A stretch of DNA of 64,000 nt from Paenibacillus donghaensis (lineage in GTDB: Bacteria; Bacillota; Bacilli; Paenibacillales; Paenibacillaceae), in assembly GCF_002192415.1 (NCBI RefSeq), contig NZ_CP021780.1:3596001-3660000 (forward strand), given 5' to 3'. The translations under genes were made by a program, and so were the position numbers. How positions within the stretch are numbered: the first letter of the stretch is position 1; each line of letters opens with the position of its first letter. Below the pieces are notes generated by a model. That model made no database searches. It had not been told where the DNA came from and worked only from the letters and a program-made list of their open reading frames with translations. Positions 8,751-46,199 of this stretch are shown here, one piece after another.

Positions 8751-8934
8751 TTAACTGCGAAAGTGCAACTAATTCCTGCCGAATCATCATCCAACAGGCG
8801 ATTAAGTGCGATTCTGCAACTAATTTCGAATAAATGAGTCCTCTTACGCTCAAACGTCAGAATTAAGTGCCTTTTTGCAACTATTTACTCAAAAATGATA
8901 AAAAACTGCTAATTAGATGCGTATTCGCAACTAA
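8751..8934 (+). repeat. Four-palindrome intergenic element, copy A
   Basis: Four ~22-bp imperfect palindromes of the form TTAGATGC-N6-GCAACTAA begin at 8751, 8802, 8863 and 8913 (steps 51, 61, 50). The 39-base middle spacer contains TACGCTCAAACG. The stretch 8488-9114 between convergent genes otherwise holds only the terminator at 8536-8576; a short minus-strand reading frame at 8653-8853 runs through the repeats and is probably not a gene. Copies B (16834-17017, inverted) and C (46016-46199) share the architecture. Confidence 0.85.
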
Positions 8935-9114
8935 TTCATGAGTCAGAACCTTTGAAGCCACCACCGAGCGGTGTTTTCTGATGTTATCAGCATACCGCGG
9001 CCAAAACAGAAACCCATTTTGTACTTAAAAAAGCTCCAGATTGCTTCGAATCGGAATAGGTCGGCACTTCACTTGTCTTCTCAGCAACTAAACGCCTAAA
9101 AGTCTACGCTCCAA

Positions 9115-10845
9115 CTAGAACTGGCTGTTATACAGCCCCGCATAATAACCGCCTGTTGCCAGCAGTTGCTCATGCGTGCCACTTTCCACAATATCACCGT
9201 CCTTCATGAACAGAATCACATCCGCTTCACGAATCGTCGACAGGCGGTGAGCAATCACGAAGCTGGTGCGCCCGGCCATCATCGCCAGAAAAGCCTTCTG
9301 AATCCGCACCTCGGTCAGCGTATCAATACTGCTGGTCGCTTCATCCAGAATCAGCATCGGCGGATCAGCCAGCATGACACGGGCTATCGTCAGCAGCTGC
9401 TTCTGCCCTTGGGAGAGGTTGTCTCCCGAGGCGCTGATCTTCGTATCGTAGCCTTCCGGCAGGCGCTTGATGAAGCTGTGCGCATTAGCCGCCTTGGCAG
9501 CGGCCACGACCTCTTCGTCTGTAGCCTGCGCGCGGCCGTAAGCGATGTTCTCCTTGATGGTGCCGCCGAACAGCCAGGTCTCCTGCAGCACCATCCCGAA
9601 ATTCCGCCGCAGGCTGTCCCGCGTCAGGGTGTTGATGTTCACACCATCGATCGCGATGGTGCCGCTGTCTACTTCATAGAAGCGCATCAGGAGGTTAACC
9701 AGTGTTGTTTTGCCTGCTCCTGTCTGACCGACGATGGCTACGCGGGTACCTGGCTTGACCTCCAGGCTGAAGTCCTTAATCAACGGCCGGTCCCGTGAAT
9801 ACGCGAAGCTGATCCGGTTGAACGTAATGGTGCCCGCACCGTTACCCATCTCCGGTGCCCCCGGCGCTTCCGGACGTTCCGGCTCCAGGTCCAGCGTCGT
9901 GAAGATCCGCTGTGCAGAGGCTGTCGCCGATTGAAGCTGGGTTACCACACCGGTTATTTCATTGAACGGCTTGGCGAACAGGGTGGAGAAGATCAGGAAG
10001 CTGGACAGATCACCGACACTAAGATGGTTCATTATAACCAGCACACTGCCGATCATCGCGATTACAGAGAAGGTAATATTGTTCACCAGCCGGGTCGACG
10101 GATTAGACAACGAACCGATGAACTGGGATTTCATGCCCGTCTGATACAGCTCGTTATTCTGCCGCTCAAAATCTGCGAAAGCCCGTTCCTCAAATCCATA
10201 GGCTGTAACCACCTTCTGTCCTACCACCATCTCCTCGACATAGCCGTTCAGACCGCCTAGAATCCGCGCCTGCTCCCGGAACAGCTGCTGGGAGCGCTGG
10301 GTAATATATTTGGCTACGTAGAAGGAAGCGGGCGCTGACAGCAGCACTACAACCGTCATGACCGGGCTGATATAGAGCATCAGCGCCACGGCTCCCGCAA
10401 TGGTGATCACACCGGTCAGCAGTGTCGAGAAGCCCTGCAGCAGCCCGTCCGAGACGGCATCCATATCATTGACAAACCGGCTGATGCTGTCCCCCTGCGG
10501 GTGGTTGTCATGAAATTTAAGCGGCAGCACATTCAGCTTGTCGAACAGCTCACTGCGCATATCATAGATCGTACGGTAAGCTAAACGGTTGGTGTAATAG
10601 GTCAACAGCCAGCCAAAGAAGCTGCCGATGAAATAGACCGCTGCCAGTATACCCAGCAGCCGCAGTACAGCCGGGAAGTCAACCTCGCCCGGTCCGGTCA
10701 TGAAATCGACCGCCCGGCCGATCAGCAGCGGCCCGACCAGACTGGCCACCACGCTGAGTACCGCGAAGATGGCGGCGGCCAGCGAAATCCCCCGGTATTG
10801 CCTCATATATACCAATAGTCTGTTCCAGGTCTGTTTGTTATTCAT
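9115..10845 (-). CDS. Heterodimeric ABC exporter subunit, catalytic half
   Basis: A 576-residue half-transporter: six membrane helices in residues 1-300, then an ATPase domain. The ATPase motifs are canonical: Walker A GQTGAGKTT, signature LSQGQKQ, Walker B MLILDEATSS with catalytic Glu, and switch His in VIAHRLST. ATG at 10845 follows GGGAGG and overlaps the upstream ABC gene by 8 bases, indicating coupled translation. Its partner has a degenerate ATP site, so the two should form a heterodimer of the LmrCD/BmrCD/TM287-288 kind, exporting drugs, lipids or peptides. The substrate cannot be told from sequence. Confidence 0.9.
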   Translation of the reverse strand: MNNKQTWNRLLVYMRQYRGISLAAAIFAVLSVVASLVGPLLIGRAVDFMTGPGEVDFPAVLRLLGILAAVYFIGSFFGWLLTYYTNRLAYRTIYDMRSELFDKLNVLPLKFHDNHPQGDSISRFVNDMDAVSDGLLQGFSTLLTGVITIAGAVALMLYISPVMTVVVLLSAPASFYVAKYITQRSQQLFREQARILGGLNGYVEEMVVGQKVVTAYGFEERAFADFERQNNELYQTGMKSQFIGSLSNPSTRLVNNITFSVIAMIGSVLVIMNHLSVGDLSSFLIFSTLFAKPFNEITGVVTQLQSATASAQRIFTTLDLEPERPEAPGAPEMGNGAGTITFNRISFAYSRDRPLIKDFSLEVKPGTRVAIVGQTGAGKTTLVNLLMRFYEVDSGTIAIDGVNINTLTRDSLRRNFGMVLQETWLFGGTIKENIAYGRAQATDEEVVAAAKAANAHSFIKRLPEGYDTKISASGDNLSQGQKQLLTIARVMLADPPMLILDEATSSIDTLTEVRIQKAFLAMMAGRTSFVIAHRLSTIREADVILFMKDGDIVESGTHEQLLATGGYYAGLYNSQF

Positions 10846-12613
10846 TTGCTGCCTCCCTACTAGACAGCTGGGACAGGCAGATTTCCCTGTACTCCGCACA
10901 GCTGTCCATCAGTTGCTCATGCGTGCCCGTCCCGGCAATCCGCCCTTCCTCAAAGACAATGATCCGGTCCGCCTGCCGGACCGTGCTGACCCGCTGGGAT
11001 ACAACCAGCAGCGTAATCTCGCTGCTGCTCTCCTTCAGCGAGCGCCGCAGGGCCGCATCGGTGGCGAAATCCAGCGCGCTGGACGAGTCGTCCAGGATCA
11101 GGATCGGCGGCTGGCCCACAACTGCTCGGGCGATGGTCAGCCGCTGCTTCTGCCCGCCGGACAGATTCAGTCCGCCGCGCGATACCTGGGTGTTCAGGCC
11201 GTCAGGGAGTTTGCTGACGAATTCTTCCGCCTGGGCGATGCGCAGCGCTGCTGCGATTTCCTCTGCGGCAGCGCCCTCCTTGCCCCAGCGGATATTGTCG
11301 GCAATCGTGCCGGTGAACAGCATCGCTTTTTGCGGCACCATCCCGATCTGCTCCCGCAGCTGCCTAAGCTTGTAATCCTTGACATTCTGTCCGCCAACCT
11401 GAACTTCACCCTCCAATACATCATAGAAACGGGGAATCAGGTTGACGAAGGTTGATTTGCCTGAGCCTGTACTGCCGATCAGTCCCACGGTTTCCCCGCG
11501 TTGAATGACCGCCGACACATCCTTCAGCGCATATTCACCGGTCTTGTTGTATCCGAACGACACATGCTCAAAGCGGATCGCCGGAACACTGTTTGCTGCG
11601 GCTGCTGCCTGGATCTGCTCTGAAGCCGCACCAGCCTGCGGAATCCGCGCTGCAGCTGAATCTGAAATCGAAGCCGTGACTGCCAGCACCTCATTTACGC
11701 GGCTCGCGGACGAGGAAGCTTTGGTGAAGATGATCACCAGGTTGGAGACAACGATCAGCGCCAGCAGGATCTGGGTGACATAGTTGATGAAAGCAATGAT
11801 CTCGCCCTGTGAGAGACGACCGCCATCGATATGGATGCCCCCGACCCACAGGATGGCAATAATAGCCGCATTGACCACCAGCGTAGTCAGTGGCCCCAGC
11901 CAGGCCGCTATCCGGCCGACCCGGATCGCCGTCGCCGTCAGATCCTCGGAAGCGGCGCGAAAGCGCTGCTGCTCCTGGCGGCTTTTGGCAAACGCACGGA
12001 TCACGCGGATCCCTGACAGATTCTCGCTCAGCACCAGCGCAAGCCTGTCCAGCTTCTGCTGGTATTTGCGGTAGAGCGGCGAGGTGCGTGTAATGATCAG
12101 ATACAGGATGATGCCAAACACCGGTGTAGCCGCCAGCAGAATCAGTGACAGCCGGAAATCGAGCAGCATCGACATGATGATTGCTCCAATACAGATGAAC
12201 GGCGCACGGATTACCAGCCGGATCAGCATCGCCACCGCCAGTTGCAGCTGGTTGACATCGCTTGTGATCCGGTTGATCAGCGAGGACGCACCAAAGGTAT
12301 CCAGCTCCGCATAGGACAGGCCGGTAATATGCCGGAACAGCTTATTGCGCAGGTTCGTGCCGAAGCCCTGAGAAGCGCGCGCAGCGTAATACTGGCAGAT
12401 CATGGAGCAGCCGAAGCCAAGCACTGACATTAACACCATCAGCCCTCCCATCCTGTACACATATCCGCTGTCCTGGTTGCCGATGCCGTTATTGATAATG
12501 AGGGCGACAATCGTCGGCAGCAGCAGCTCAAGGATCGCCTCGAGCAGCTTGAAGATAGGTCCGATGATTGCCTCTTTCCGGTAAGGTTTTAGATATACTG
12601 CAATTTTGAACAC
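10838..12613 (-). CDS. Heterodimeric ABC exporter subunit, degenerate-site half
   Basis: A 591-residue half-transporter with six N-terminal membrane helices (to about residue 300) and an ATPase domain. Walker A is GSTGSGKST and the signature LSGGQKQR is intact. The residue after Walker B is Asp rather than Glu (LILDDSSSALD), and the switch His is replaced by Gln (VVSQRVST). Those two changes mark the non-hydrolysing composite site of heterodimeric exporters. A linker rich in Ala (AAAAANSV) precedes the ATPase domain. It overlaps the downstream ABC gene by 8 bases, and no third gene is attached. Confidence 0.9.
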   Translation of the reverse strand: MFKIAVYLKPYRKEAIIGPIFKLLEAILELLLPTIVALIINNGIGNQDSGYVYRMGGLMVLMSVLGFGCSMICQYYAARASQGFGTNLRNKLFRHITGLSYAELDTFGASSLINRITSDVNQLQLAVAMLIRLVIRAPFICIGAIIMSMLLDFRLSLILLAATPVFGIILYLIITRTSPLYRKYQQKLDRLALVLSENLSGIRVIRAFAKSRQEQQRFRAASEDLTATAIRVGRIAAWLGPLTTLVVNAAIIAILWVGGIHIDGGRLSQGEIIAFINYVTQILLALIVVSNLVIIFTKASSSASRVNEVLAVTASISDSAAARIPQAGAASEQIQAAAAANSVPAIRFEHVSFGYNKTGEYALKDVSAVIQRGETVGLIGSTGSGKSTFVNLIPRFYDVLEGEVQVGGQNVKDYKLRQLREQIGMVPQKAMLFTGTIADNIRWGKEGAAAEEIAAALRIAQAEEFVSKLPDGLNTQVSRGGLNLSGGQKQRLTIARAVVGQPPILILDDSSSALDFATDAALRRSLKESSSEITLLVVSQRVSTVRQADRIIVFEEGRIAGTGTHEQLMDSCAEYREICLSQLSSREAANE

Positions 12614-12754
12614 AACAATTCACACCCAATATTAATAGTATTGTAGAACCTGAATTATGTAAGCATCAATTATGATTATGCCATATCTGCTTTCATATTC
12701 ATACACCGCTTCATACACCGTCCTGCGGGACAGGCTTCAATATAGTCATAAAAA

Positions 12755-12786
12755 CAAATCCCCCCGGCTGCCCGGGAGGGAATTTG
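12755..12786 (-). terminator. Terminator after htpG
   Basis: On the minus strand CAAATTCCCTCCCGGGC pairs with GCCGGGGGGATTTG and is followed by TTTTTATG, about 30 bases after the htpG stop. Confidence 0.85.
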
Positions 12787-12816
12787 CATGGATACGATAT
12801 CCGTAACGGACACCGT

Positions 12817-14700
12817 TTAGACCATAATTTTGCAGATATCGTTGGTGAACTGCACCGGATCATTGACCTGCAAACCTTCGATCAGGAGCGCCTGATTGTA
12901 GAGCAGATGCGTGTACAGGGCAAGCTTCTCTTGATCCTTATCGGACGCAGCCTTCAGCGACTGGAACACCTCATGATGAATGTTGATTTCCAGCACCTTG
13001 TCCGCTTCCACTTCCTGGCCGCCGTTAGGCATCGACTTCAGGATTTTCTCCATTTCAATCGTCAGCTCGCCTTCTGTGGACAGGCAGACCGGATGCGTCT
13101 TCAGCCGCTTGGAGGCTTTGACATTCTTGACCTTGCCGGACAGGATGCCCTTCATCGCTTCAAAAAGCTCCTTGTTCTCATTCTCTTCCGCTTCCGTTGG
13201 CTTGTCCGCCGCATCCGCTTCGATTCCGAGGTCGCCGCTGGAGACCGATTTGAATTCTTTTTCCTTATAGGACTGGATCATCTTGATCGCAAATTCATCA
13301 ATATCGTCGGTGAAATAGAGAATCTCAAATCCCTTATCGGAAACCATTTCCGTCTGCGGCAGCTTCTCAATCCGTTCGATCGACTCACCGGAAGCGTAAT
13401 AGATGAACTTCTGGTCTTCAGGCATTCCCGATACATATTCGTCCAGCGTAACCAGCTTCTTCTCCTTGGAGGTGTGGAACATCAGCAGGTCCTGCAGCGT
13501 ATCCTTGTGCATGCCGTAATCGTTGTAGACCCCGAATTTCAGCTGTCTGCCAAAAGACTTGTAGAACAGTTCATATTTGTCTCTCTCGTCCTTCAAGAGG
13601 CTCTGCAGCTGGCCCTTGACCTTGTTCTTGATATTCTTCGCGATCAGCGTCAGCTGGCGGTCATGCTGCAGCATCTCACGGGAGATGTTCAGCGACAGAT
13701 CCTCGGAATCGACCATTCCTTTGACGAAGCTAAAGTAGTCCGGCAGCAGATCGCCGCATTTGTTCATAATCAGCACGCCGTTTGAGTACAGCTCCAGCCC
13801 TTTTTCATACTCTTTGGTGTAGTAGTCAAAAGGGGTGTTCTCCGGGATAAACAGAATCGCGTTGTAAACCACGGCACCGTCGGCGCTGATGTGGATATGC
13901 TTAAGCGGCTTGTCGAAGCCGTAACGTTTCTCTGCATAGAAGTTGTCGTAATCTTCAGCGGTCAGCTCGTTTTTGTTCTTACGCCAGATCGGCACCATGC
14001 TGTTGACCGTCTGCTCCTGGACAATTTCTTCGAATTCGCCTTCGGCGCCTTCCTTGGGCTTCTGCTCCTTGACGTCCATCTTGATCGGGAAGCGGATAAA
14101 GTCGGAGTATTTCTTGATGATCGACTTCAGGCGGTATTCTTCCAGATACTCGTCGTATTGGTCGTCTTCGGTGTTCTCTTTGATCTTCAGCGTAACGATG
14201 GTACCTACGGTGTCCTTCTCGTAAGGCTCAATCGTATACCCGTCCGCACCCTTCGATTCCCATTTAAAAGCTTCTGCGCTGCCCAGCGCCTTGCTCACCA
14301 CCGTCACATCATCCGCCACCATAAACGAGGAATAGAAGCCTACCCCAAACTGGCCGATAATGTTGTGTCCGTCCTGGGCTTCGTTCTCTTTCTTAAAAGC
14401 TAGCGAGCCACTCTTGGCGATAATACCCAGATTGTTCTCCAGCTCCTCCTGGGTCATCCCGATTCCGGAATCCTCAATCGTCAGCGTTCTGGTCGCCTTA
14501 TCGGCGGTTACTTTAATGTAATAATCCTCTTTATTGAACACCAGGCCTTCATCGGAGAGGGCTTTGTAATAGATTTTGTCAATGGCGTCACTTGCATTGG
14601 AGATCAGTTCGCGCAGGAAAATTTCCCGCTGGGTGTAGATGGAGTTAATCATCATTTCAAGCAATCGTTTGGATTCCGCTTTGAACTCTTTTTTAGCCAT
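12817..14700 (-). CDS. htpG: Chaperone protein HtpG (Hsp90)
   Basis: A 627-residue cytoplasmic Hsp90. The N-terminal GHKL ATPase domain (to about 230) shows [12 protein letters not shown], the DSGIGMT motif and [13 protein letters not shown]. The middle domain carries the catalytic Arg region ([10 protein letters not shown] near 350), and a C-terminal dimerisation domain follows. Length matches bacterial HtpG. GGAGATTTACG precedes the ATG. It is a single-gene unit: a sigma-A promoter and a perfect CIRCE operator lie upstream and a strong terminator downstream, so it should be repressed by HrcA and induced by heat. B. subtilis htpG is not CIRCE-controlled, so this arrangement differs from that model. 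Confidence 0.97.
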
Positions 14701-14750
14701 GAATACGTAAATCTCCTTTCAGAATAAACAGTTTGTCCAGCATCGAAGTG

Positions 14751-14777
14751 TTAGCACTCCGCTATCATGAGTGCTAA
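14751..14777 (-). promoter_or_regulatory. CIRCE operator (HrcA-binding) upstream of htpG
   Basis: TTAGCACTC-N9-GAGTGCTAA is present with no mismatch. It lies about 50 bases upstream of the htpG ATG and just downstream of the -10 element, the usual place for HrcA repression. Confidence 0.95.
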
Positions 14778-14787
14778 TCCTTCTTTT

Positions 14788-14816
14788 ATATAACACGATC
14801 TGTTTTTTGTTGTCAA
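14788..14816 (-). promoter_or_regulatory. Sigma-A promoter of htpG
   Basis: On the minus strand TTGACA (14811-14816) and TTATAT (14788-14793) are separated by exactly 17 bases. The -35 element abuts the stop codon of the upstream LysR gene. Confidence 0.85.
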
Positions 14817-14820
14817 TATC

Positions 14821-15735
14821 TTACTCAGAAATAGCCGGTTTCAAGGCCGCAGCCTCTGCCTGGGCATCCGCCAGCAGCATCTGAATCAGAAATTGCAAGG
14901 GCTGTGACTTCCACTTCTTGGGATGAAGCAGCAGTTGCAGATCCAGATAAATCTCCGGGTGCACAAAAGGCAAGGCCGTCAGCGAGCCGCGCCGGATCTC
15001 CTCTTCCGCCACAATCCTTGGCAAAAGCGCAATGCCCAGCCCGTTCATCACACAGCGCTTGATCGCCTCCAGATTGGACAGCTCGAAGCCGATCCGGAAA
15101 TTGATGCCATGTGTCTTGAGCAGATTCTCGAACAGGCTGCGGTAGATGCAGCTCTCCTCGGAGACGATGAACTCGCAATTGTTGAGATCCGGCAGCGTGA
15201 CATTCGGCTGAAGCGCCAGACTATGGCTGCTTGGTGCGACAAGCACCAGCGGCTCCTCGCGGATGGTGGTACGCTCCAGCTGTGAATCCGCCGTGCCCCG
15301 GTCCAGCATCAAGCCAATATCGACCTCGCCGTCTTTGATTTTGGACAACAGATTCGCTTCTTGTTCGGTCTGCAGATGAATGTTCAGCCCCGGAAACTTC
15401 GTACGGAGCTGCTGCAGGAACGGCGGCAGATAGAAGGCAGCGAGCGAATCAATGGTGCCAATCGTCAGTGTTCCCCCGATCTGCTGGGCAATGGTTTCCT
15501 TGGACCGGTCATACAGATCCAGTATCTCCACAAACAGCTTCAGCAGCTCTTCCCCCGGCGGGGTAAGCCGCAGCTGTCTGCCATGCCGCTCGATCAGCGG
15601 AACCCCATATTCCTTCTCGATCTTCTGAATCTGCATGGTGACACTGGACTGGGCATAACCCAGCTCCTCGGCAGCCCGTGTGAAGCTCTGCCGCTTCGCC
15701 ACTTCACGAAAGGTTCTTAAATAGGTTAAATCCAT
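14821..15735 (-). CDS. LysR-family transcriptional regulator
   Basis: A 304-residue LysR regulator. The winged helix-turn-helix is at residues 1-60 (FREVAKRQSFTRAAEELGYAQSSVTMQIQKIEKEYGVPLIER). The two-lobed effector domain is about 88-290 (GGTLTIGTIDSLAAFYLPPFL; later IGFELSNLEAIKRCVMNGLGIALLP). It is divergent from a dapA-like gene with a 120-base shared promoter region containing a palindrome, the classic LysR-target arrangement. It probably controls that gene and itself. The effector is unknown; a dihydrodipicolinate-type or sialate/ketoacid substrate of the neighbour is a guess. Confidence 0.92.
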   Translation of the reverse strand: MDLTYLRTFREVAKRQSFTRAAEELGYAQSSVTMQIQKIEKEYGVPLIERHGRQLRLTPPGEELLKLFVEILDLYDRSKETIAQQIGGTLTIGTIDSLAAFYLPPFLQQLRTKFPGLNIHLQTEQEANLLSKIKDGEVDIGLMLDRGTADSQLERTTIREEPLVLVAPSSHSLALQPNVTLPDLNNCEFIVSEESCIYRSLFENLLKTHGINFRIGFELSNLEAIKRCVMNGLGIALLPRIVAEEEIRRGSLTALPFVHPEIYLDLQLLLHPKKWKSQPLQFLIQMLLADAQAEAAALKPAISE

Positions 15736-15749
15736 GACCTCACCCTAAC

Positions 15750-15764
15750 ATCAACATTATTGAT
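15750..15764. promoter_or_regulatory. Probable LysR operator
   Basis: ATCAA-N5-TTGAT, a 15-bp dyad, lies between the divergent LysR and dapA-like genes, close to the LysR start codon. LysR proteins typically bind such short interrupted dyads. Confidence 0.55.
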
Positions 15765-15855
15765 GATACCTATCACTTATTATAGCTAACGCCGATGAAA
15801 TAATCCATGTTAGAGTATGATTAGAAGAACTAAATCTTTTGGAGGCCGATAATTT

Positions 15856-16755
15856 ATGTTAACAGAACAGCAGATTTATGGAGTGTACGTACCTGTAGTA
15901 ACCCCGTTCAGCACTGCCGGTGAAGTTGATCTGGATTCGTATCAGCGTTATGTGAAGAACATAGTCAACAACAGCATTCAAGGTCTGGTCGTCAATGGGA
16001 CTACTGGAGAATCCCCAACCGTATCTCTGGATGAACTGCAGCTTCTGGTCGGCGTATCCCGTGAGTTATTGAAATCCACAACGATTCCGCTGGTCGTGGG
16101 TACCGGCACGAATGATACACGCTCCACCGTGAAGCGGACAGAGCTGGCCGCCAATCTTGGCGCTGATGCCGCGCTGGTCGTTGTGCCTTATTACAGCCGC
16201 CCCTCGCAGGAAGGCATCATTGCCCACTTCCGCAAGGCGGCAGAGGTAGGCCTGCCGATCATTGCCTATGACATTCCGGGCCGTTCCGGCGTAGGCATGA
16301 CCCTGGATACGGCGCGGACCATCCTCGAGATGGAGCATGTCGTTGGCCTGAAGGACTGCTCCGGCAGTCCGAACCTGGTAACCGAGCTGGCCCGTCTGCG
16401 CTCCAAGCCGGTATTATGCGGCGATGATCTGCATTTCCTGGAGATGCTCGGCTGTGGTGCTGCCGGCGGCATGCTGGCTTCCGCCAATGTGCAGACCGCC
16501 GATTTCCTGCAGATCTACCATTATTTCGCCGCTGGTCAGCAGGAGCTGGCTGAAGCCGCCTTTGAACAGCTGCGCTCCTTGATGACCCTGCTGTTCAAGG
16601 AATCCAATCCGGCTCCGATCAAATGGCTGCTCCAGGAGCAGGGCGAGATCGCCTCGGATACACTGCGGCTGCCCCTGACCTCCATCACAAGCGCACTGGC
16701 CGAGGAGCTGCAGGTTCATCTGCAACAGCCGGATGCGGTCAGGCTGACTTCCTGA
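15856..16755 (+). CDS. DapA-family aldolase/lyase (second dihydrodipicolinate-synthase-like gene)
   Basis: A 299-residue TIM-barrel class I aldolase of the DapA/NAL family. It has GTTGESPT (residues 43-50), the Tyr of IAYDIPGRSG, and the Schiff-base Lys in HVVGLKDCSG, so it is expected to be active. GGAGG lies eight bases before ATG. A second family member at 46309-47184 sits in the lysine/dipicolinate cluster and is the better dapA. This copy stands alone opposite a LysR regulator, which points to a conditional or different role, for example another keto-acid aldolase. Automatic annotation as dapA would be tempting but is not proved. Confidence 0.8.
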   Translation: MLTEQQIYGVYVPVVTPFSTAGEVDLDSYQRYVKNIVNNSIQGLVVNGTTGESPTVSLDELQLLVGVSRELLKSTTIPLVVGTGTNDTRSTVKRTELAANLGADAALVVVPYYSRPSQEGIIAHFRKAAEVGLPIIAYDIPGRSGVGMTLDTARTILEMEHVVGLKDCSGSPNLVTELARLRSKPVLCGDDLHFLEMLGCGAAGGMLASANVQTADFLQIYHYFAAGQQELAEAAFEQLRSLMTLLFKESNPAPIKWLLQEQGEIASDTLRLPLTSITSALAEELQVHLQQPDAVRLTS

Positions 16756-16784
16756 TTGCGAGAATTGCATACTAATTTTATTGA

Positions 16785-16828
16785 GAAGGTTATCTGCGGA
16801 GTTAGACTCTCCGGGATAACCTTTTTTT
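16785..16828 (+). terminator. Terminator after the second dapA-like gene
   Basis: AAGGTTATC-x2-CGGAG / CTCCG-x-GATAACC hairpin followed by TTTTTTT. Confidence 0.92.
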
Positions 16829-16833
16829 GTGTA

Positions 16834-17017
16834 TAGAGTGCAAATCAGCACTTAAATCCGCACAAATGTGAGTTTTTGAGGAAATAAGTGCCAAAGCGCA
16901 ACTAAATTCCCACACCGGAGCGTTAACTGCTCAATTTGGCAGAATTAGATGCACTTTTGCACTAAAACTAGTTGAAAGTCTGAAATGAGACGAAATTAGT
17001 TGCTGGTTTGCACTTAA
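16834..17017 (-). repeat. Four-palindrome intergenic element, copy B (inverted)
   Basis: Palindromes begin at 16834, 16884, 16945 and 16996 (steps 50, 61, 51), the mirror order of copies A and C. The reverse complement of the 39-base middle spacer carries AACGCTCC, also present in copy C. It lies between two terminators in a convergent gap; the gene-free stretch 16756-17135 holds nothing else. Confidence 0.85.
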
Positions 17018-17094
17018 CTGTTAGGCCGGGGTGCGCTCGATACTCAGGCAGGCTTGGCCTCCAGCATTTCTGCATTCAGGAAATATACGCAGCA

Positions 17095-17126
17095 AAAAAC
17101 CGCCAGGATCCCATCCCGGCGGCTGT
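17095..17126 (-). terminator. Terminator after the DEAD-box helicase gene
   Basis: On the minus strand AGCCGCCGGGAT pairs with ATCCTGGCGG and is followed by TTTTTTGC, ten bases after the stop. Confidence 0.88.
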
Positions 17127-17135
17127 TACATACAA

Positions 17136-18569: not shown

Positions 18570-18670
18570 GGGGTCTCCTTAATTTCTAATACATATATTG
18601 TGAATCCTCGAACGTCATTTTATCAAACAACACATAAGGATAACATATCTGAAGCTAAATAGATAGGGCA

Positions 18671-18740: not shown

Positions 18741-18744
18741 GCAG

Positions 18745-18776: not shown

Positions 18777-18790
18777 CTTCTAAGATAAGT

Positions 18791-37839: not shown

Positions 37840-37855
37840 TTCCAAGCATATATTT

Positions 37856-37905
37856 AAAAAAGGTCGCAGAATGAGGGGATAACCCGTCATTACTGCGACC
37901 TTTTT
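37856..37905. terminator. Bidirectional terminator between the lipoprotein and ftsK
   Basis: AAAAAGGTCGCAG ... CTGCGACCTTTTT, a hairpin with A and T runs on both sides, lies between convergent genes. Confidence 0.92.
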
Positions 37906-37940
37906 GTTTGTTGTTATCCATAATATTCCAGCTCGTATAT

Positions 37941-40583
37941 TTAAGAACTGATCCGGCCAATCTGGTACTGCTCCAGCGAGACCAGCACTTCACGGGGCTT
38001 GCTGCCCTCGTAAGGCCCGATAACCCCCCGGGCTTCCATAGAGTCGATTAAGCGTGCCGCACGTGTGTAGCCCACTCTCATGCGCCGCTGAAGCAAGGAT
38101 ACGGAGGCCTGCTTCGCTTCCAGGATGATCTGCACCGCTTGCTCATACAATGCATCCTGGGGCTCCTGGTCTTCCTCTACGGTATCGTCTACTTCAGGAA
38201 CAATGGACTCATCATAAGTGGCCTCGCCCTGGCTGCTGACATATTGTACAATGGTCTCCACTTCCTGATCACTCATGAAAGCGCCCTGTACACGTACTGG
38301 CTTGGAAGCTCCCATGGGCAGGAAGAGCATATCTCCGCGACCCAGCAGCTTCTCCGCACCCGGCATATCCAGAATGGTGCGGGAATCCACATTGGAGGAT
38401 ACCCCAAAGGCAATCCGCGAAGGGATATTCGCTTTGATCAGTCCTGTGATAACGTCGACGGATGGACGCTGTGTTGCAATAATCAGATGGATGCCTGCAG
38501 CACGGGCCATCTGGGCCAGCCGGCAGATTGCATCCTCCACATCGCTCGCAGCAACCATCATCAGATCGGCAAGCTCGTCCACCACTACAACGATGTAAGG
38601 CAGCACTGCAGCCGGATTATCCTTCATCAGGTTGTTGTAGCCTTCAAGATTGCGCGTTCCCGATTTGGAGAACAGGTCATATCTCTTCTCCATCTCTACA
38701 ACAATCTTCTTGAGCGCCAGACTGGCCCGCTTCGGATCGGTAACCACCGGTGCCAGCAGATGCGGAATTCCGTTATAGATGTTCAGCTCGACCATCTTGG
38801 GGTCGACCATCAGAAACTTGACTTCGTTCGGTTTCGCTTTATAGAGAATACTGGTGATGATACCGTTGATACATACAGACTTGCCTGAACCTGTGGCACC
38901 TGCCACCAATAGATGGGGCATCTTGGCCAGGTTGCCGATAATCGTCTGGCCCGAAATATCGCGTCCAAAGGCGATGGTCAGTTTGGATTCGGCCTCCTGG
39001 AAAATCTGGGTCTCCATCACCTCACGCATGGTCACCACCGAGACCTCGGAGTTCGGCACCTCGATACCGATTGCCGATTTGCCGGGAATCGGCGCCTCCA
39101 TACGGATATCCTTGGCTGCCAGCGCCAGCGCGATGTCATCCGTAAGGTTGACAATCCGGCTGACCTTAACGCCGATATCCGGCTGAATCTCATATCTTGT
39201 CACTGCCGGACCGCGGACTACCTCCAGCACCTTGGCCCGGACACCGAAGCTCTCCAGTGTGGCTTCAAGCTTGCGGGCCGTCTGCATATAATCATTCTGG
39301 TCCCCCGCCTTAGAGCCGTTATTGGGCTTGGCCAGCAGCCGGAATGACGGCAGCTTATAGGGCTTCGGAGGCGGTGGCGGCGGCACGACTACCTGGCCTT
39401 CGCCCAGCTCATCAAGCAGCCCGGCCAGCTCAAGCGGAGCCACCCCCTCTTCCCCGTCAGCTGCAGGAGCCTGATTAGGATCAGCTTGAACCTGACCCGC
39501 TGATGGCTGGGCAGCAGGCATGCTGCCGCTGCGCGCCGCCGGTGAGAATTCACTCCACTCCTCGCGGTCCTCTTCGTTCAGGCCTTCTGAGCGGATATGC
39601 TCAAAGAAATCGCGGATAATCGGTGTCACCGGCTCAAGCTCAGCTTCATCAGCCTCCTCCATTCCGGCGTAGGGCGCTGAAGAAGTTGGAATGGAGGAGA
39701 GGCCAGAAATCAGCGGACCGTCGGCCAGTCCGAAATCGTCATCCTCGTCCATGTCTTCCGCTGCACCTGCCCGTTCCGGTGTTGAGCCTTTGAACCAGCC
39801 GGTGAGCCGCTGAATAATAGTCGGCTGGCTGCGATCAGGAAGCAACGGGTCTTCCTCCACATAGTCCTCGTCATCATCGGGCAGCACCGGAGGCGCCGCA
39901 GCACGGCTTCTGGATGGCTTGGCTGCAACCGGAACGGCCTTCGGCCGGTTAGCCGCTTTCTTGCGGATTCCCTCCACAAGCTTGACGCCACGGACCCGCA
40001 GCAGGGTGAACAGCTCCACGTAGGAGAGGTTCGTTACCAGCATGAAGCTGATCGCCAGCATGACAATCATCAGCAGCTTGGCTCCAAGACTGCCGAAGAG
40101 AAACAGCAGAGCTGAATATTCCAGTGCTCCGATATACCCGCCGCTGATGTCCTTGCCCAGCATATACACCGTGCTGCCGTCGGCACCCGGCTTCAGCGCA
40201 CCGGATAAATCATTATGTATTTGAGCCATTACATTGCTCGGATGCAGCAGGGACAGCGGTCCCAGCTTCTGCTCCATGGCAGAGATCGTGCTCATCAGAC
40301 AGAGTGAGCATACCAGCAACAGTCCGCCTGTATGACGGCTGGTCCATGCTGAAGGCCATTTGCGGTGAATCATCACCATCAAACCGTAGATAATACCGGC
40401 CAGCGGCAGCACAAAATAGAATCTCCCCAATAAATAACCTGCCATGCTGGAGAGAGAACGTCCAACTGCCGCTTCGCCGGATAAGGCAATAACTGAAATT
40501 GTAATCAGCATAATGCCGTAGATTTCATATTTTAAAACGCTGCCTAGCAGCGCTTTTTTCTTCTTTTTTCTTCGTTTAGCCAC
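37941..40583 (-). CDS. ftsK: DNA translocase FtsK/SpoIIIE
   Basis: An 880-residue septal DNA pump. Four N-terminal membrane helices (about 20-190) are followed by an acidic, Pro-rich linker (about 215-420, with PPPPPPKP) and the RecA-like motor with Walker [11 protein letters not shown] and Walker [17 protein letters not shown]-terminal gamma winged helix (about 815-880, [20 protein letters not shown]) reads KOPS/SRS sites. It is in the spoIIIE position (between tepA/ylzJ and ymfF in B. subtilis), so it probably moves the forespore chromosome. The start is GTG with GGGGGTGG upstream. Confidence 0.95.
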
Positions 40584-40660
40584 AGTAGAGCCACCCCCGG
40601 AACAACATTATACCATATAATGGCGTGGCGTACCTATGTTCTGTTTTGTAAAAAGATGTA

Positions 40661-40876
40661 TCATTTCAGCAAAGAGACCACCGCCCCCGGAGAGAGGGCA
40701 GGATTGAGGTAGCTGTCCAGCGGACACTGCAGCAGCCGCACGATCCGGCCCCTGCCCTGCTCCAGCGGCTCTACCTCCATCACCACCCCTGCTACGCTGA
40801 CCTCCATAGTCGGAGCACTGGTATGAATAGCCCCTTCCCAAATTTCTTCCATCGGCATTACTGTATAAAAGATCAT
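40661..40876 (-). CDS. ylzJ: YlzJ-like protein
   Basis: A 71-residue protein ([15 protein letters not shown] ... [21 protein letters not shown]) of the YlzJ family, function unknown. Its ATG overlaps the tepA TGA by four bases (ATGA), so translation is coupled. ylzJ accompanies tepA next to spoIIIE in bacilli. Confidence 0.88.
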
Positions 40877-41649
40877 TGTGTCAGCCCTCCTGCCACGCCC
40901 ACTACAGGCATCATTACATCCTGACCGGCGATCATGTCGTTCAGCCGCTTAAGCGCGGCGCCAATTCCGCCCACCTCATCCATCAGCCCGTATTTGACCG
41001 CATCCAGCCCGCCGACCGCAGTGCCGATGTCACGGTTCAGCTCGCCGGTCTGGAACATCAGGCTCTTGAATTGCCCCTCGGTAATCCGTGAGTGGGAGGT
41101 GACAAATTTGACGACACGCTCCTGCATTTTCTCCATATACTCAAACGTCTGGGGCACCCCGATAATAAGTCCGTTCATGCGGATGGGATGAATCGTCATT
41201 GTGGCGCTTTCGGCAATGATGGAGTAGCTGGAAGCTACGGCAATCGGCACCCCGATGCTGTGTCCGCCTCCAATGACCACCGTCACGGTTGGTTTGGATA
41301 AGGAAGCGATCATTTCGGCAATCGCCAGCCCTGCCTCCACATCGCCTCCAACCGTATTCAGGATGATCAGCAGCCCTTTGATGCCTTTATTCTGCTCTGC
41401 AGCCACCAGCTGCGGAATAATATGCTCATATTTTGTTGTTTTGTTATGGGGCGGCATCACAATATGCCCTTCAATCTGGCCGATAATCGTCAGACAGAAA
41501 ATATCCGGCTCCCCGCTTGGAACCACCGTCTGTCCCAGTTCCTTCAGTGCGTTGATCGCAGTTGGGGCCATCATTTCATTGACACCCGGCTTCTCGGCGG
41601 GATTCAGCTCCTCATTGGCACTCTCACTATTGCTTCTGTTGTACTCCAT
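40873..41649 (-). CDS. tepA: ClpP-class protease TepA
   Basis: A 258-residue ClpP-like serine protease (YmfB/TepA) thought to act on signal peptides or in export during spore development. The catalytic Ser lies in [14 protein letters not shown] (near 130) and the His in MTIHPIRM (near 155). There is no N-terminal membrane helix; the first 35 residues are polar. ATG at 41649 is preferred because GGGGGAG lies eight bases upstream; GTG at 41655 is too near. Confidence 0.9.
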
Positions 41650-41772
41650 ATTCACGACTCCCCCTTTTTGCTTGCAGCCTGATACCTGTGCTGCCGCTTA
41701 ACTTGGCTTTTCGTTAGTATGACAATCAGGGGGAGTCTCTTATACAGTTATTTGCTATTCCTTAACATTTGC

Positions 41773-42789
41773 TTAATATTTGTCTACGACAGCACCCAGG
41801 GCTGCTCCCCGAATATAGGTTTGCCCATTCAGACTGCTCAGCGAAGCAGGTGTTCCCGTGACAACGACACCCAAGATCCGTATGTTTTCAGCCTTCGGTT
41901 CGGAGTTATCTGGACTGAGGTATTTTGATATCCTTTTATATTCACTGTAATAATTGTCTTTCCGTTCGAGTCCATACTGAATAGCACCGATAAAATCTTT
42001 CGGTTCCACCTGATCCGTATCCGGTCGGATTCTAAAACCGTAAACGCCAAAGGAAGAGGACAGGGGTCGTGGATAAATCAGTTTGCCAACGCCATCCTTG
42101 TGAGGCTCAGAATCAAATCCCTTCGGGTCATCATACGTATCGACCCAATACCATACCGGCTTAATGCCTGCAGGGAGCATGTTCTTCACCTCGTCGAAGG
42201 AATAGTCCTTGTTGAACGACAAAGCCAGCTCTGCCAATTTTTCGTTACCCATCTGTGTGATTGCAGGCAGATCGTTGAGGATTTTGCCATTGTAATCGAC
42301 ATCCGGGACGTAATAAGCCATCTCCTTCTGGCCGTTATAGGGGTTATACTGGCGGTGATATTCAAGCTCTTCGTTTTCTTGATAACCCGATCCCTTAACC
42401 GTCAAGTTGCTTATTCCACCATAGGCGCCTGTAGCGAAGGGAAACCACCATTCATTGTAATTAAACCATTTCTCCTGCCAGGGAATGGGTACGTTCTCGA
42501 TTATCTTATAGGTATTGATCTCCAACACGCCCGACAGAAATCCACGGTTATCCTTGAAGCCAGATTCATACTCATTGGGACTGCTGATTGACATATACAG
42601 CTGTTCACTGAAATGAGCCTCCCTTGATTGCCGTTCAACAAGCTGTGCAGCGCCGAAAAAAACAACGATTAGTGTAACAATACTTACGATAAATGAAATG
42701 CTGATACTACGGAACATGCTTCTCCGTTTAGCCTTTTTTAAGGTCTGTGCCAGTTGCTGATCTTCTTTCTCTTCCCATGGAGCGGTCAT
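41773..42789 (-). CDS. Sigma-factor regulator (anti-sigma) membrane protein
   Basis: A 338-residue protein with the layout of Sigma_reg_N/Sigma_reg_C anti-sigma proteins. A short cytoplasmic part (WEEKEDQQLAQTLKKAKRR) leads to one membrane helix (about 27-50, SISISFIVSIVTLIVVFFGAA) and then an outside domain (60-338) with VWYWVDTYDDP and YGFRIRP motifs. It overlaps the ECF sigma gene by four bases. It interrupts the tepA-rnj order found in B. subtilis, so the pair looks inserted. Confidence 0.82.
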   Translation of the reverse strand: MTAPWEEKEDQQLAQTLKKAKRRSMFRSISISFIVSIVTLIVVFFGAAQLVERQSREAHFSEQLYMSISSPNEYESGFKDNRGFLSGVLEINTYKIIENVPIPWQEKWFNYNEWWFPFATGAYGGISNLTVKGSGYQENEELEYHRQYNPYNGQKEMAYYVPDVDYNGKILNDLPAITQMGNEKLAELALSFNKDYSFDEVKNMLPAGIKPVWYWVDTYDDPKGFDSEPHKDGVGKLIYPRPLSSSFGVYGFRIRPDTDQVEPKDFIGAIQYGLERKDNYYSEYKRISKYLSPDNSEPKAENIRILGVVVTGTPASLSSLNGQTYIRGAALGAVVDKY

Positions 42790-43283
42790 TGCTCCTCACC
42801 TCCGTAGATTTGTTGAAATTGCTGTCTGGCACGATATAACGATGCTTTTACCGTTCCTTCACTGATGCCCAACAGTGACGAAATTTCCTTATAGGACAGC
42901 TCCATCTCATATTTGAGCAGGATCAGCTGCCTGCTCGCCGGCTTCAGCTTGCCGAGAACTCGCTCAATCAATTCTTTCTGTTCCTGCCGAAGCAGCAGTG
43001 AATCCGGCTGCTCAGACTCCGAAGCAGCTTGTTCAGCCGCTTCATCCATATACTGAAACCGTTTATGCTTGCGACACATATCATAGTAAGCATTAATCGC
43101 CACCTTATAGAGCCATGCGCTAAACTTGCGTTCATCGATTCCCTCAAGGTATAACAACGCCTTGTACAATGTGTCCTGCACGATATCCTCCGCATCAGCG
43201 GTGCCAGCGCCTAAACGGATTAAGTATCGCCGAATCTCTGCCATTTTGGATTGAAGCTGCTGCTCCTTGTTGAATGGCCTCAT
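42786..43283 (-). CDS. ECF-type RNA polymerase sigma factor
   Basis: A 165-residue ECF sigma factor. Region 2 has AEDIVQDTLYKALLYLEGIDERKFSAWLYKVAINAYYD; region 4 has LKPASRQLILLKYEMELSYKEISSLLGISEGTVKASLYRARQQF. AGGAGGTGG precedes ATG. The downstream membrane protein overlaps it and probably restrains it. A palindrome-bearing ECF-like promoter lies 20 bases upstream, which suggests autoregulation. Confidence 0.92.
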   Translation of the reverse strand: MRPFNKEQQLQSKMAEIRRYLIRLGAGTADAEDIVQDTLYKALLYLEGIDERKFSAWLYKVAINAYYDMCRKHKRFQYMDEAAEQAASESEQPDSLLLRQEQKELIERVLGKLKPASRQLILLKYEMELSYKEISSLLGISEGTVKASLYRARQQFQQIYGGEEQ

Positions 43284-43305
43284 GCTCCACCTCCTTGGCT
43301 ATATA

Positions 43306-43320
43306 ACGATTGGATCGTTT
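43306..43320 (-). promoter_or_regulatory. Possible autoregulatory ECF promoter/operator
   Basis: AACGAT-CCA-ATCGTT is a perfect dyad. It is embedded in a minus-strand GACAAC-N16-CGTTAT arrangement (the AAC ... CGT pattern of ECF promoters) just upstream of the sigma gene. Confidence 0.5.
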
Positions 43321-43382
43321 AAATGTTGTCCCCGCTTCCGCAAATATTTCTGTGCATTCTATTCAACGCAAGAAAACGCAAA

Positions 43383-43431
43383 AACCCCTTCTCCCGTGGA
43401 AACCGTCCAATATTTCCGGGGAAAAGGGGTT
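43383..43431 (-). terminator. Terminator after the RNase J gene
   Basis: AACCCCTTTTCCCC ... GGGAGAAGGGGTTTTTG forms a long hairpin with a T run on the minus strand. Confidence 0.88.
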
Positions 43432-43468
43432 ATGCTTATTAAGCTTATAGTGAAGTAGACGGGTCTAC

Positions 43469-45151
43469 TCAGACTTCCATAATAATTGGCAGGATCATCG
43501 GTCTGCGGCGGGTCTGTTCATATAGGAACCGGCCGAGCGAATCCTTCACGCTGGTCTTCAGTGATGCCCATTCGTTGACTTTCTCGCTCATCAGGCGCTG
43601 CAGAGTGCTGGATACAATCCGGTTCGCCTCGTCGAGCAGTCCTTCGGATTCACGAACATAGACAAATCCGCGGGAGATGATGTCCGGTCCGGAGACAATC
43701 GCACCATTCTGCTTGCTCAGTGTAACAACCACGACCAGAATTCCGTCCTGGGAGAGCAGCTTACGGTCACGCAACACAATATTGCCGACATCGCCTACAC
43801 CCAGTCCATCGATCAAGACGTTGCCTGCCGTTACCTTACCGGCTCTGCGGGCGGCTCCGCCTGAAATTTCGATAACCTCACCGATTTCAGTGATGAAGAT
43901 GTTGCCTGGTTCTACGCCGACAGATTCTGCGAGGATGGCGTGTCTGCGCTGCATACGGTATTCACCGTGAATCGGCAGGAAGAACTTCGGTTTCATCAGG
44001 TTGAGCATCAGCTTGAGCTCTTCCTGGCTGCCGTGTCCAGATACGTGAACCCCGGAGTTGGAGCCGCTGTAAATTACATTGGCGCCAAGACGGAACAGCT
44101 CATCAATGGTACGGCCGACATATTTCTCGTTGCCTGGTACCGGCGTTGCCGCAATAATAACGGTATCGCCCGGCAGAATATCCACCTTGCGGTGACTGGA
44201 GCGTGCCATACGTGTCAGAGCGGACATTGGCTCGCCCTGGCTGCCTGTGCACAGAACCACTACACGGTTGCCCGCCATCCGGTTCATTTCTTCAGTTTCA
44301 ATAAGCATACCATCCGGCACATTCAGATATCCTAGCTCGGAAGCGATCGATACCACGTTGACCATACTGCGGCCAATAACGGTAATCTTGCGGCCGGTTG
44401 ATTCGGCAGCATTGACGACCTGCTGGATACGGTGCACGTTGGAAGCAAAGGTAGCTACAACCACACGCTGCTCCGCCTTGCGGAAAATGTCTTCAAGCAC
44501 AATGCCGACATTCTTCTCGGATGGAGTGAAGCCCGGTTTCTCGGCGTTGGTACTGTCTGACAGCAGGGCAAGTACACCTTTTTGGCCGATTTCAGCCATG
44601 CGGTGCAGGTTCGCAAATTGACCGTTGACTGGGGTGTGGTCGAATTTGAAGTCACCTGTGTGCACTACATTGCCTTCTGGTGTCTCAATGCACACGCCGA
44701 CAGAATCGGGAATGCTGTGATTAGTTCTAAAGAAGGTGGCTGTCAGGTTGCCAAGCTCAATTTCGGAATCTTCATGAATCAGAATCCGCGTGGTATCGCC
44801 CAGCAGGTTGGCTTCCTTCAATTTATTCTCTACAAGGCCTAAAGTCAGTCTGGTTCCGTATATGGGAACGTTCAGATTCTTCAGCACATAAGGGAGTCCC
44901 CCGATGTGATCCTCGTGCCCGTGGGTAAGCACAATTCCTCTTACCTTGTCACGGTTCTCCGTCAAATAAGAAATATCAGGAATAACAATATCAATACCGA
45001 GCATATCCTCTTCTGGGAACTTCAGTCCCGAGTCTACGACTACAATGTCAGCTCCATATTGAATGACATACATGTTTTTCCCGATTTCCCCGACCCCGCC
45101 CAATGCGAAAATCGTCAGTTTATCGTTGTTGTTATTATTTTTTTTGGACAA
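43469..45151 (-). CDS. rnj: Ribonuclease J
   Basis: A 560-residue metallo-beta-lactamase/beta-CASP nuclease. The metal motif THGHEDHIGG is intact near residue 75, and TGDFKFD, the ALLSDSTNAE region and the VSGHGSQEE beta-CASP motif follow. The C-terminus ends PIIMEV. The place between dapA and tepA is that of B. subtilis rnjB, whose motif is degenerate (HGHDEN). This one should be an active 5'-exo/endonuclease and may be the main RNase J. The N-terminal SKKNNNNNDK is Asn-rich. The start is TTG, ten bases after AGGAGGG. Confidence 0.94.
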   Translation of the reverse strand: MSKKNNNNNDKLTIFALGGVGEIGKNMYVIQYGADIVVVDSGLKFPEEDMLGIDIVIPDISYLTENRDKVRGIVLTHGHEDHIGGLPYVLKNLNVPIYGTRLTLGLVENKLKEANLLGDTTRILIHEDSEIELGNLTATFFRTNHSIPDSVGVCIETPEGNVVHTGDFKFDHTPVNGQFANLHRMAEIGQKGVLALLSDSTNAEKPGFTPSEKNVGIVLEDIFRKAEQRVVVATFASNVHRIQQVVNAAESTGRKITVIGRSMVNVVSIASELGYLNVPDGMLIETEEMNRMAGNRVVVLCTGSQGEPMSALTRMARSSHRKVDILPGDTVIIAATPVPGNEKYVGRTIDELFRLGANVIYSGSNSGVHVSGHGSQEELKLMLNLMKPKFFLPIHGEYRMQRRHAILAESVGVEPGNIFITEIGEVIEISGGAARRAGKVTAGNVLIDGLGVGDVGNIVLRDRKLLSQDGILVVVVTLSKQNGAIVSGPDIISRGFVYVRESEGLLDEANRIVSSTLQRLMSEKVNEWASLKTSVKDSLGRFLYEQTRRRPMILPIIMEV

Positions 45152-45436
45152 ATGAATCTAACCCTCCTATGATGTTGGATGTCATACTTTTATTGGTAAA
45201 CATTGAACTTCGATAATTTCAGCGGCGCTGAACACATTCTTCAAACAGCTGTTATCTTCCACTAATCAACTAGGAAATTCCGAAAGTCTGTAAAATATTC
45301 AATGACAAATCTCCCGATTCCGGGCAGTAATATTGTTATTGAAGCGGATAAACACCCGTCAAAATTCACCGCCGCGCCCCGCGCGCGAAGAGAATCAACA
45401 ATTCCACAGACTCATCCAGGGACCTATCCTGTCTCA

Positions 45437-45452
45437 CAATGTAAATACATTG
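45437..45452. repeat. Short perfect inverted repeat
   Basis: CAATGTA-AA-TACATTG, a 7-bp dyad in the promoter-distal gap upstream of RNase J. It could bind a regulator; nothing else supports a function. Confidence 0.35.
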
Positions 45453-45590
45453 ACGGAAGATTACCGCATATTTAATTTTAACCGCACCCAGTCACTTAAG
45501 GACATTATACATGATTTTTTTGGCAAAAGACAAGTCACTCTGCCTGATAACGATATTCTTTCCGTAAAACGTGGATCGATCCCTCCCAAA

Positions 45591-45610
45591 CCCTCCCTTC
45601 CAAGGGAGGG
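45591..45610. repeat. GC-rich hairpin in the 45.2-46.3 kb gap
   Basis: CCCTCCCTTCCAAGGGAGGG is a near-perfect 10-bp dyad, followed by CCCCAAAGGG and further G/C-rich dyads. The whole gene-free stretch 45152-46308 holds this hairpin, the dyad at 45437, a direct repeat at 45775-45848, a terminator and the four-palindrome element C. Reading frames such as 45333-45656 look like noise. Confidence 0.5.
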
Positions 45611-45774
45611 CCCCAAAGGGTTGCACCCTCTGGACTCCTGCAAGTTTGGCGAATGAGTCTGGCGGTACTGTGATTAGGTAGGTGGGAGCGAGGAGCGCTT
45701 ATCCCTGGGGGACCGCTTGAACGTCGCTGGGCTGGCCTGCGATCCCTGACGGGATGCACGGCCGGGAGTTAAGA

Positions 45775-45848
45775 TCAAAAGCGGGCTGTTCCTGCGGAAT
45801 GCGCAAAGACCCTAAGGTCAAAAGCGGGCTGTTCCTGCGGAATGCGCA
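45775..45848. repeat. 31-bp direct repeat, two copies
   Basis: TCAAAAGCGGGCTGTTCCTG followed by CGGAATGCGCA occurs at 45775-45805 and again, without change, at 45818-45848, a 43-base step. The 12-base spacer is AAGACCCTAAGG. Confidence 0.85.
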
Positions 45849-45886
45849 CAAAAAAACCGGTGATCACGAAGATCATCCGGTTGTGC
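45846..45886 (-). terminator. Probable terminator of the dapG-dapA transcript
   Basis: GCACAACCGGATGATC-TTCG-TGATCACCGGTT on the minus strand, followed by TTTTTTGTGC. It is the first strong terminator after dapA. Confidence 0.8.
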
Positions 45887-46015
45887 CATTCTTTTACTTA
45901 GAGACCCTTGCCTGCTCCCAACGCAGTTTGCGCCATTGAAGGAAATAAAGGAAATAATAGTGGTGGAAACTCCCTATAGAACCTCTGAAATGTTGCACTA
46001 GAGCTTCCAAAGAAA

Positions 46016-46199
46016 TTAGATGCAAAAATGCATTTAATTTCAGCTGTAATGGGTGTTATTGGGCAAATAAGTGCGAATCTGCAACTATTTTCGAAAAAAT
46101 TGCTTGTTGAACGCTCCAAATCGGAAATTAGATGCGTATTTGCACTTATTTGCTCCGAAATGGGAAAAATCGCTGAATTAGATGCGTATTCGCACTTAA
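46016..46199 (+). repeat. Four-palindrome intergenic element, copy C
   Basis: Palindromes begin at 46016, 46067, 46128 and 46178 (steps 51, 61, 50), identical to copy A. Units read TTAGATGC-N6-GCACTTAA and close variants. The middle spacer starts TTTCGAA as in copy A and contains AACGCTCC as in copy B. Confidence 0.87.

Follow-up and report, generated by a model that had tools for sequence, protein, structure and literature searches.

Dispersed four-site palindrome arrays of fixed geometry in Paenibacillus donghaensis and their association with IS66-type ends

The DNA analyzed here, referred to as the window, is a 64-kb stretch (positions 3,596,001 to 3,660,000) of the genome of Paenibacillus donghaensis, a single contig of 8,542,333 bp. 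It contains three copies of an array of four imperfect palindromes, designated A, B, and C (Table 1). Arrays A and B lie between convergent open reading frames, and a dapA-type gene has array C on its 3' side, as the initial annotation had placed them; array C is also upstream of an RNase J gene. The window was searched with the pattern WTARNTGCN6GCANYTAW, allowing up to two mismatches, and 13 matches were obtained, 12 of them in the three arrays and one a stray. Shuffled controls gave a mean of 2.35 matches, and 0 of 100 shuffles reached 13. The positions that the initial annotation had given for the 12 palindromes were all correct, the steps between them were confirmed, and the motif ACGCTC that it had read in the middle spacer was seen in A, in C, and in the reverse complement of B. 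Array B belongs to an older subtype, and IS66-type ends were not found around it. The inverted ends of the window copies are decayed, including those flanking array A, and a remnant of the right end is recognizable next to array C. The two dapA-family genes in the window are different from each other and each has an array just 3' of it (B and C), possibly by coincidence.

Table 1. Arrays and associated features in the 64-kb window
Feature	Position	Strand	Sites or sequence	Steps (bp)
Array A	8751..8934	+	8751-8772, 8802-8823, 8863-8884, 8913-8934	51/61/50
dapA-family gene	15856-16755
Array B	16834..17017	- (inverted)	16834-16855 (2 mismatches), 16884-16905, 16945-16966 (1 mismatch), 16996-17017	50/61/51
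Stray palindrome match	45478
Array C	46016..46199	+	46016-46037, 46067-46088, 46128-46149, 46178-46199	51/61/50
Right inverted-end remnant of array C	46272..46284	+	CCTAACTTGTAAC vs CCTAAGTAGTAAC, 2 mismatches
dapA-family gene	46309-47184

A genome-wide search established that the three copies are members of a family dispersed across the chromosome. The palindrome, with up to one mismatch, was matched 922 times in P. donghaensis, compared to 5 times for a reversed control, and the 8.54-Mb chromosome contains 158 exact 61-bp middle pairs, with 0 in the control. Sixty-five arrays were found in 1.2 Mb of sampled sequence. The four sites of an array are called P1 to P4, in order. In a tally of 56 four-site arrays from the sampled genome, which admitted only outer steps of 49 to 52 bp and middle steps of 60 to 62 bp, the steps were 51/61/50 in 27 arrays, 50/61/51 in 23, 50/61/50 in 5, and 50/60/51 in 1. 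When no limits were set on the steps, in a search of the window and 60 stretches of 20 kb each, many site clusters were partial, and four consecutive detected sites were always arranged as 50-51/61/50-51. The spacing is rigid genome-wide; random spacing would have spoken against the layout described in the initial annotation. Gaps between convergent genes are enriched among the P. donghaensis loci (31/82, versus 118/473 of the gaps of ≥250 bp), and such gaps are not overrepresented among the loci of other genomes (11/80).

Each 20-bp site consists of two half-sites (TARNTGC in family 1, to which the palindromes above belong) that flank an asymmetric 6-bp center, and the asymmetry gives each site a direction. 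The order of directions is > > < <, with 50 to 51 bp within a pair and 61 bp across the center of the array. In the five genomes tabulated, the 6-bp center mostly starts with a purine on the top strand in P1 and P2 and on the bottom strand in P3 and P4, a pattern that is clearest in P. donghaensis and Saccharibacillus alkalitolerans. The half-arrays of S. alkalitolerans follow the same rule: a few have no exact partner, and all those with a pattern-matching partner (21 of 21) occur as plus then minus at exactly +111 bp, with none reversed.

The sites are far more conserved than the DNA between them. In a parsimony analysis of 53 gap-free family 1 copies (30 of 83 loci were dropped as interrupted or having other steps), the number of terminal-branch changes per position was 0.65 in the core, 5.23 in the spacer, 4.17 in the center, and 2.38 at the free fourth base. 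Twelve P. donghaensis copies have both ends decayed, and the ten that remain when two truncated ones are left out are intact at 474 of the 480 specified site positions. At four loci common to different species, 38, 40, 39, and 39 of 40 core positions are the same and spacer agreement is 0.80, 0.64, 0.68, and 0.64, respectively; at the shared locus of a Cohnella pair the neighboring DNA is 92 to 95% identical, and at the two P. phocaensis loci (L221 and L223) several arrays stand side by side, so that array-to-array orthology is uncertain at both. Fixed steps and conserved cores between diverging spacers bear out the selection on sites and spacing that the initial annotation had proposed.

The geometry is not tied to one site sequence. 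A motif-blind scan, which scored the mutual similarity of four windows of 20 bp (two taken forward and two reversed), gave 147 hits in 2.07 Mb of P. donghaensis sequence and none at threshold in 624 kb of shuffled sequence. With tandem repeats removed, an outer step of 50 to 51 bp yielded 134 arrays in the 2.07 Mb, and eleven control outer steps yielded 0, 0, 0, 1, 1, 1, 1, 2, 3, 3, and 4. At least five different site sequences share the geometry in this genome. At a slightly lower threshold, which gave 137 arrays, 65 belong to family 1, 37 to family 3, 11 to family 5, 10 to family 4, and 9 to family 2, and 5 are other arrays; the 10 scan calls of families 6 to 8 were dropped, being 51-bp direct tandem repeats. 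Examples of the sites are ATAGGGAAATTCTACCGCTA (family 2), AACGGACTCAGGAGCCTCTA (family 3), TAACTGTATTTCGTACAGCTA (family 4), and TACCTGCAAATGTGCAGGTA (family 5). Among arrays with readable edges, and with 40 to 42 bp allowed by the scan, the inner edges of P2 and P3 are separated by 41 bp in 58/60 arrays of family 1, 8/9 of family 2, 37/37 of family 3, and 10/10 of family 4.

The filtered scan was also run on five other Paenibacillaceae genomes (400 kb in all) and found 6 arrays, versus 0 to 1 at other steps, and some of these carry yet other motifs; 50 kb of Escherichia coli gave 0. Before removal of tandem repeats, the five genomes and E. coli together gave 8 hits, compared to 0, 6, 0, and 4 at other outer steps. 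Two controls did not discriminate: a changed middle step gave 67 to 149 hits versus 147, and other site orders gave 70 to 130. These are uninformative because near-symmetric sites let the windows slide or flip, and the middle step therefore rests on the site positions and the direction on the oriented centers and half-arrays. Taken at the level of sequence, these comparisons demonstrate a fixed geometry, diversification of the site sequence, and constraint on both sites and spacing.

When the flanks of 40 copies were aligned, conservation did not stop at the 184-bp core but reached as far as two inverted ends, GTTACTACTTAGGNCC and GGNCCTAAGTAGTAAC. The ~184-bp element of the initial annotation thus stands as a core and not as a full length, which in this genome is usually ~306 bp to the inverted ends. 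The resulting MITE has inverted ends GTTACTACTTAGG and 8-bp target duplications, the terminal duplications for which the initial annotation had suggested a search, and no transposase is encoded within it, which upholds the nonautonomous nature proposed there. Two further element types, of ~270 to 280 bp and ~300 to 480 bp, have the same ends and other internal motifs. With up to 3 mismatches allowed in arrays with full flanks, both ends were recognizable in 30/63 arrays of family 1 (one end in 24 and neither in 9), 5/9 of family 2, and 25/37 of family 3, compared to 1/400 random places; both IS66-type ends were found in 0/9 arrays of family 4 and 0/11 of family 5.

The genome contains six IS66 (PF03050) matches, four of them without internal stops. 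Three of these four sit within MITE-type ends, as elements of 1,602, 1,603, and 1,627 bp, each with 8 of 8 matching target duplication bases; one IS66 copy was scanned and encodes a 501-amino-acid transposase (NF033517; E value, 5.5e-92). IS66-family ends generally begin with GTAA, unlike the ends in P. donghaensis, which begin with GTTAC. A nonredundant set of 58 elements has these ends together with target duplications in which 6 or more of 8 bases match. In 37 of the 58, the three IS copies among them, the element is located at the exact center of a family 1 site, which indicates that the transposase responsible for moving family 1 targets this site preferentially. In the remaining 21 insertions, the left arm leans toward TA--TG (T in 17, A in 16, T in 12, and G in 12 of 21). 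As judged from these insertion signatures, families 1 to 3 are mobile in P. donghaensis through IS66-type ends, with a target preference for site centers. The mobility that the initial annotation had raised as one option is borne out by the inverted ends, the 8-bp duplications, and an IS66-family partner with the same ends. Its account did not include terminal inverted repeats, target duplications, an IS66-family partner, or palindromes as insertion targets, nor the directional order, other site families of the same geometry, or other genera. In a congener (G027), MITEs of ~184 to 186 bp with the same inverted ends were observed at five loci (L117, L124, L128, L132, and L136), and no four-site array was seen in them by eye.

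Outside P. donghaensis, a scan of GTDB representatives for the exact 61-bp pair returned 93 stretches, and the 80 matches listed are from Paenibacillus, Saccharibacillus, and Cohnella. Around these 80 loci, 148 of 167 neighboring sites are at 50 to 51 bp, one each is at 48 and 49 bp, and none is at 52 to 94 bp. At the genus level the exact middle pair was found in 2/100 genomes, at the order level in 10/392, and at the phylum level in 1/398, the last being P. donghaensis itself. Since arrays are absent from most relatives, any role in the host would not be essential. At one S. alkalitolerans locus five other Saccharibacillus genomes have gaps of 29 to 124 bp without an array, and arrays thus come or go. 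At least five other S. alkalitolerans copies align with the query over exactly the core (query 1244-1429), at 74 to 78% identity. A viral origin was rejected, as 0 IMG/VR contigs contained the exact pair. Arrays of five sites occur at two loci, L199 and L260. A further Saccharibacillus locus (L332 to L336; G287 C1 near 1.380 Mb) has 21 sites with steps of mostly 50, 61, 50, and 49 bp, apparently from an ~210-bp duplication; S. alkalitolerans has five sites there (L260), and the flanks are 79 to 87% alike. A second short interspersed repeat lies beside an S. alkalitolerans array (L241, ~5765 to 5893) and has many partial matches in other Saccharibacillus genomes, for example, G193 and G308.

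The initial annotation had named selection on structure or protein binding, and of these two binding is now the likelier. Hairpins of RNA or single-stranded DNA, whether REP/REPIN-like or a structured RNA, would account for the palindromic form of the sites, and when four single sites were folded, two did clearly better than shuffles and two did not. This reading is disfavored, and we consider it very improbable. Covariation in the stems, which the initial annotation had proposed to check, was not found where sampling is best: pairs 3-18 and 4-17 showed no excess over independent columns in P. donghaensis, S. alkalitolerans, and P. sacheonensis, the only genomes given weight in the pairing test (55 to 129 unique sites), and one center pair is anti-paired in each (8-13 in S. 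alkalitolerans, 0.04 versus 0.43 expected; 9-12 in P. donghaensis, 0.20 versus 0.43, and in P. sacheonensis, 0.22 versus 0.41). In small samples of 9 to 19 sites, from P. rubinfantis, Cohnella OV330, and Cohnella JJ-181, some pairs exceed expectation (4-17 in P. rubinfantis, 0.53 versus 0.32 [n = 19]; Cohnella JJ-181, 0.56 versus 0.35 [n = 9]). No copy-by-copy matching was found between P1 and P4 or between P2 and P3, in a comparison that left out the P. donghaensis rows, where two orientations are mixed; P1 and P2 are alike in P. sacheonensis (z = 2.9). Rfam gave 0 matches in the 64-kb window and 0 in four other loci (L188, L189, L233, and L251). The Y1/RAYT transposase domain PF01797 is present in P. 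donghaensis and in G112, G096, and G071, and it is absent from three array-rich genomes (G177, G287, and G413). A REPIN/RAYT model was rejected on this absence and because the arrays lacked the REP features tested. The lack of excess pairing favors recognition of two half-sites on double-stranded DNA.

The arrays are probably docking platforms for a putative protein. With a probability of roughly 0.6, we propose that each is a dyad-symmetric, double-stranded docking array for four dimers of such a protein, spread in this genome by the IS66 transposase. Four dimers of a putative sequence-specific DNA-binding protein would assemble on one array as a defined complex, and related proteins of other specificity would bind the identically spaced arrays of the remaining site families. 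As seen from the sequence, the transposase favors the family 1 site, TARNTG-8 bp-CANYTA; copies consequently nest at site centers, and the element brings along its own landing pads. By arithmetic, the difference between 50.5 and 61 bp is one helical turn, so that each step rotates the next site alike. On that arithmetic, an equal rotation per step would suit an assembly that is wrapped or stacked. From the geometry one can predict how four dimers would be seated on 184 bp, and the combination of site sequences that vary between families with a fixed architecture points to a conserved protein assembly. As to function, a platform that anchors or insulates the chromosome seems to us likelier than one that regulates single genes. 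A cognate protein was not evident among ten proteins beside single-array loci, at six loci; these were unremarkable, and one is a TetR-type regulator. More tentatively, the arrays could represent a Paenibacillaceae-wide nucleoprotein platform, in which the conserved geometry and at least five site families within one genome would imply paralogous binders and from which IS66-type transposons would have captured arrays as portable landing pads. Against the platform as a whole stands the spread of families 4 and 5 without IS66-type ends.

A purely selfish origin, in which the arrays are landing pads or transposition sites of IS66-driven MITEs and look conserved as only copies with good sites multiply, would explain why so many insertions lie at site centers and why the target-bearing family 1 is the commonest in P. 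donghaensis, and the terminal branches, drawn from roughly one quarter of the genome, also cover the period preceding a copy's last move. We regard it as unlikely, since families 4 and 5 and the S. alkalitolerans arrays keep the geometry without such ends on the evidence seen, cores are kept at loci common to different species, and the end-decayed copies have retained nearly all of their specified site positions. A slightly less probable reading takes P1-P2 and P3-P4 as the ends of a minimal nonautonomous transposon, each with two transposase-dimer sites 50 bp apart, and likens it to elements with repeated transposase-binding sites. The S. alkalitolerans copies that align over exactly the core, the locus lacking an array in five relatives, and the > > < < order, which suits two ends, agree with it. 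However, no autonomous form was seen, in that the paired half-arrays of S. alkalitolerans were all partnered at +111 bp and no array-framed gene of that kind was present in the sampled P. donghaensis sequence; extra sites come in 50-bp steps, and arrays are retained at loci shared between species. Likewise, neither the partial clusters in the sampled P. donghaensis sequence nor the half-array pairs of S. alkalitolerans supported an autonomous array whose two halves enclose a gene. It is least probable, to the point of being hardly tenable, that the spacing is merely inherited from a recent common ancestor with rare insertions and deletions. The family 1 copies of P. donghaensis are indeed related (median spacer identity, 0.63), but the S. 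alkalitolerans spacers are nearly saturated (median, 0.40, versus 0.28 when shuffled) and yet 24 of 24 callable arrays there are 50/61/50. Moreover, the same steps recur in different site families and across genera, and the arms flanking the core are of varying length.

If the docking arrays act as a chromosome organizer, they would constitute a new kind of bacterial locus; if the minimal mobile element were the true reading, it would be a new kind of transposon end. An element that moves with its own preferred target in four copies provides a concrete example of self-targeted nesting. Dispersed repeats of bacteria are usually defined by sequence. In keeping with the initial annotation, which knew of no named family with this layout, a literature search, mostly without subscription papers, found no description of such arrays. 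The vehicle is an IS66 MITE, a known kind of element; no named kind was found for the geometry-defined four-site array, and we therefore rate that layer as categorically new.

Like MITEs of the IS66 family (ISBst12-like, with a single transposase gene), the elements have inverted ends and 8-bp duplications, lack genes, and have an intact IS partner; passages of PMC8024623 treat IS66/ISBst12, and passages of PMC3189936 treat IS66 and MITEs. The arrays differ in adding four directional sites of fixed spacing, at which the transposase also prefers to insert, and in that other families and genera have the array with no such ends. With REP, BIME, and REPIN sequences (treated in parts of PMC3733652, PMC3116915, and PMC8266576) they share high-copy, intergenic palindromic sites in ordered groups, and the abstract of PMC8450116 describes insertion of IS elements into REP palindromes. 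In contrast to those RAYT-associated repeats, there are four sites rather than inverted doublets, there is no hairpin covariation, and in place of the GTAG/CGTC foot tag of REPs, five genomes have (A/T)TAR...YTA(A/T) as their site consensus, with no GTAG foot. The bcr repeats of the Bacillus cereus group are likewise dispersed chromosomal repeats, of 100 to 400 bp, in a Gram-positive lineage, and their mobility is linked to a TTTAT motif; the relevant passages of PMC6542083 do not describe four sites of fixed spacing.

The core sites of tyrosine recombinases have inverted arms around an asymmetric 6- to 8-bp center that partner sites share, together with a cognate recombinase. Arms and an asymmetric center are present in the array sites, and the centers differ between the sites of one array. 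Resolvase res sites and the Fis enhancer of DNA invertases have several dimer sites at helically set distances and are single control sites. The arrays, in contrast, are dispersed in tens to hundreds, with no recombinase beside the loci looked at. Two further observations concern the P. donghaensis chromosome. Palindromes also occur there as direct tandem repeats with a period of 51 bp (or 50 to 53 bp), at 349432, 758731, 1475145, 3163685, 4613385, 5618234, and 67788; the spacers are alike, and the arrays have a within-pair step of the same length as this period. At ~499.7 to 501.3 kb, a transposase-like open frame of 448 codons, which looks IS4-like, splits a family 1 array in its middle spacer.
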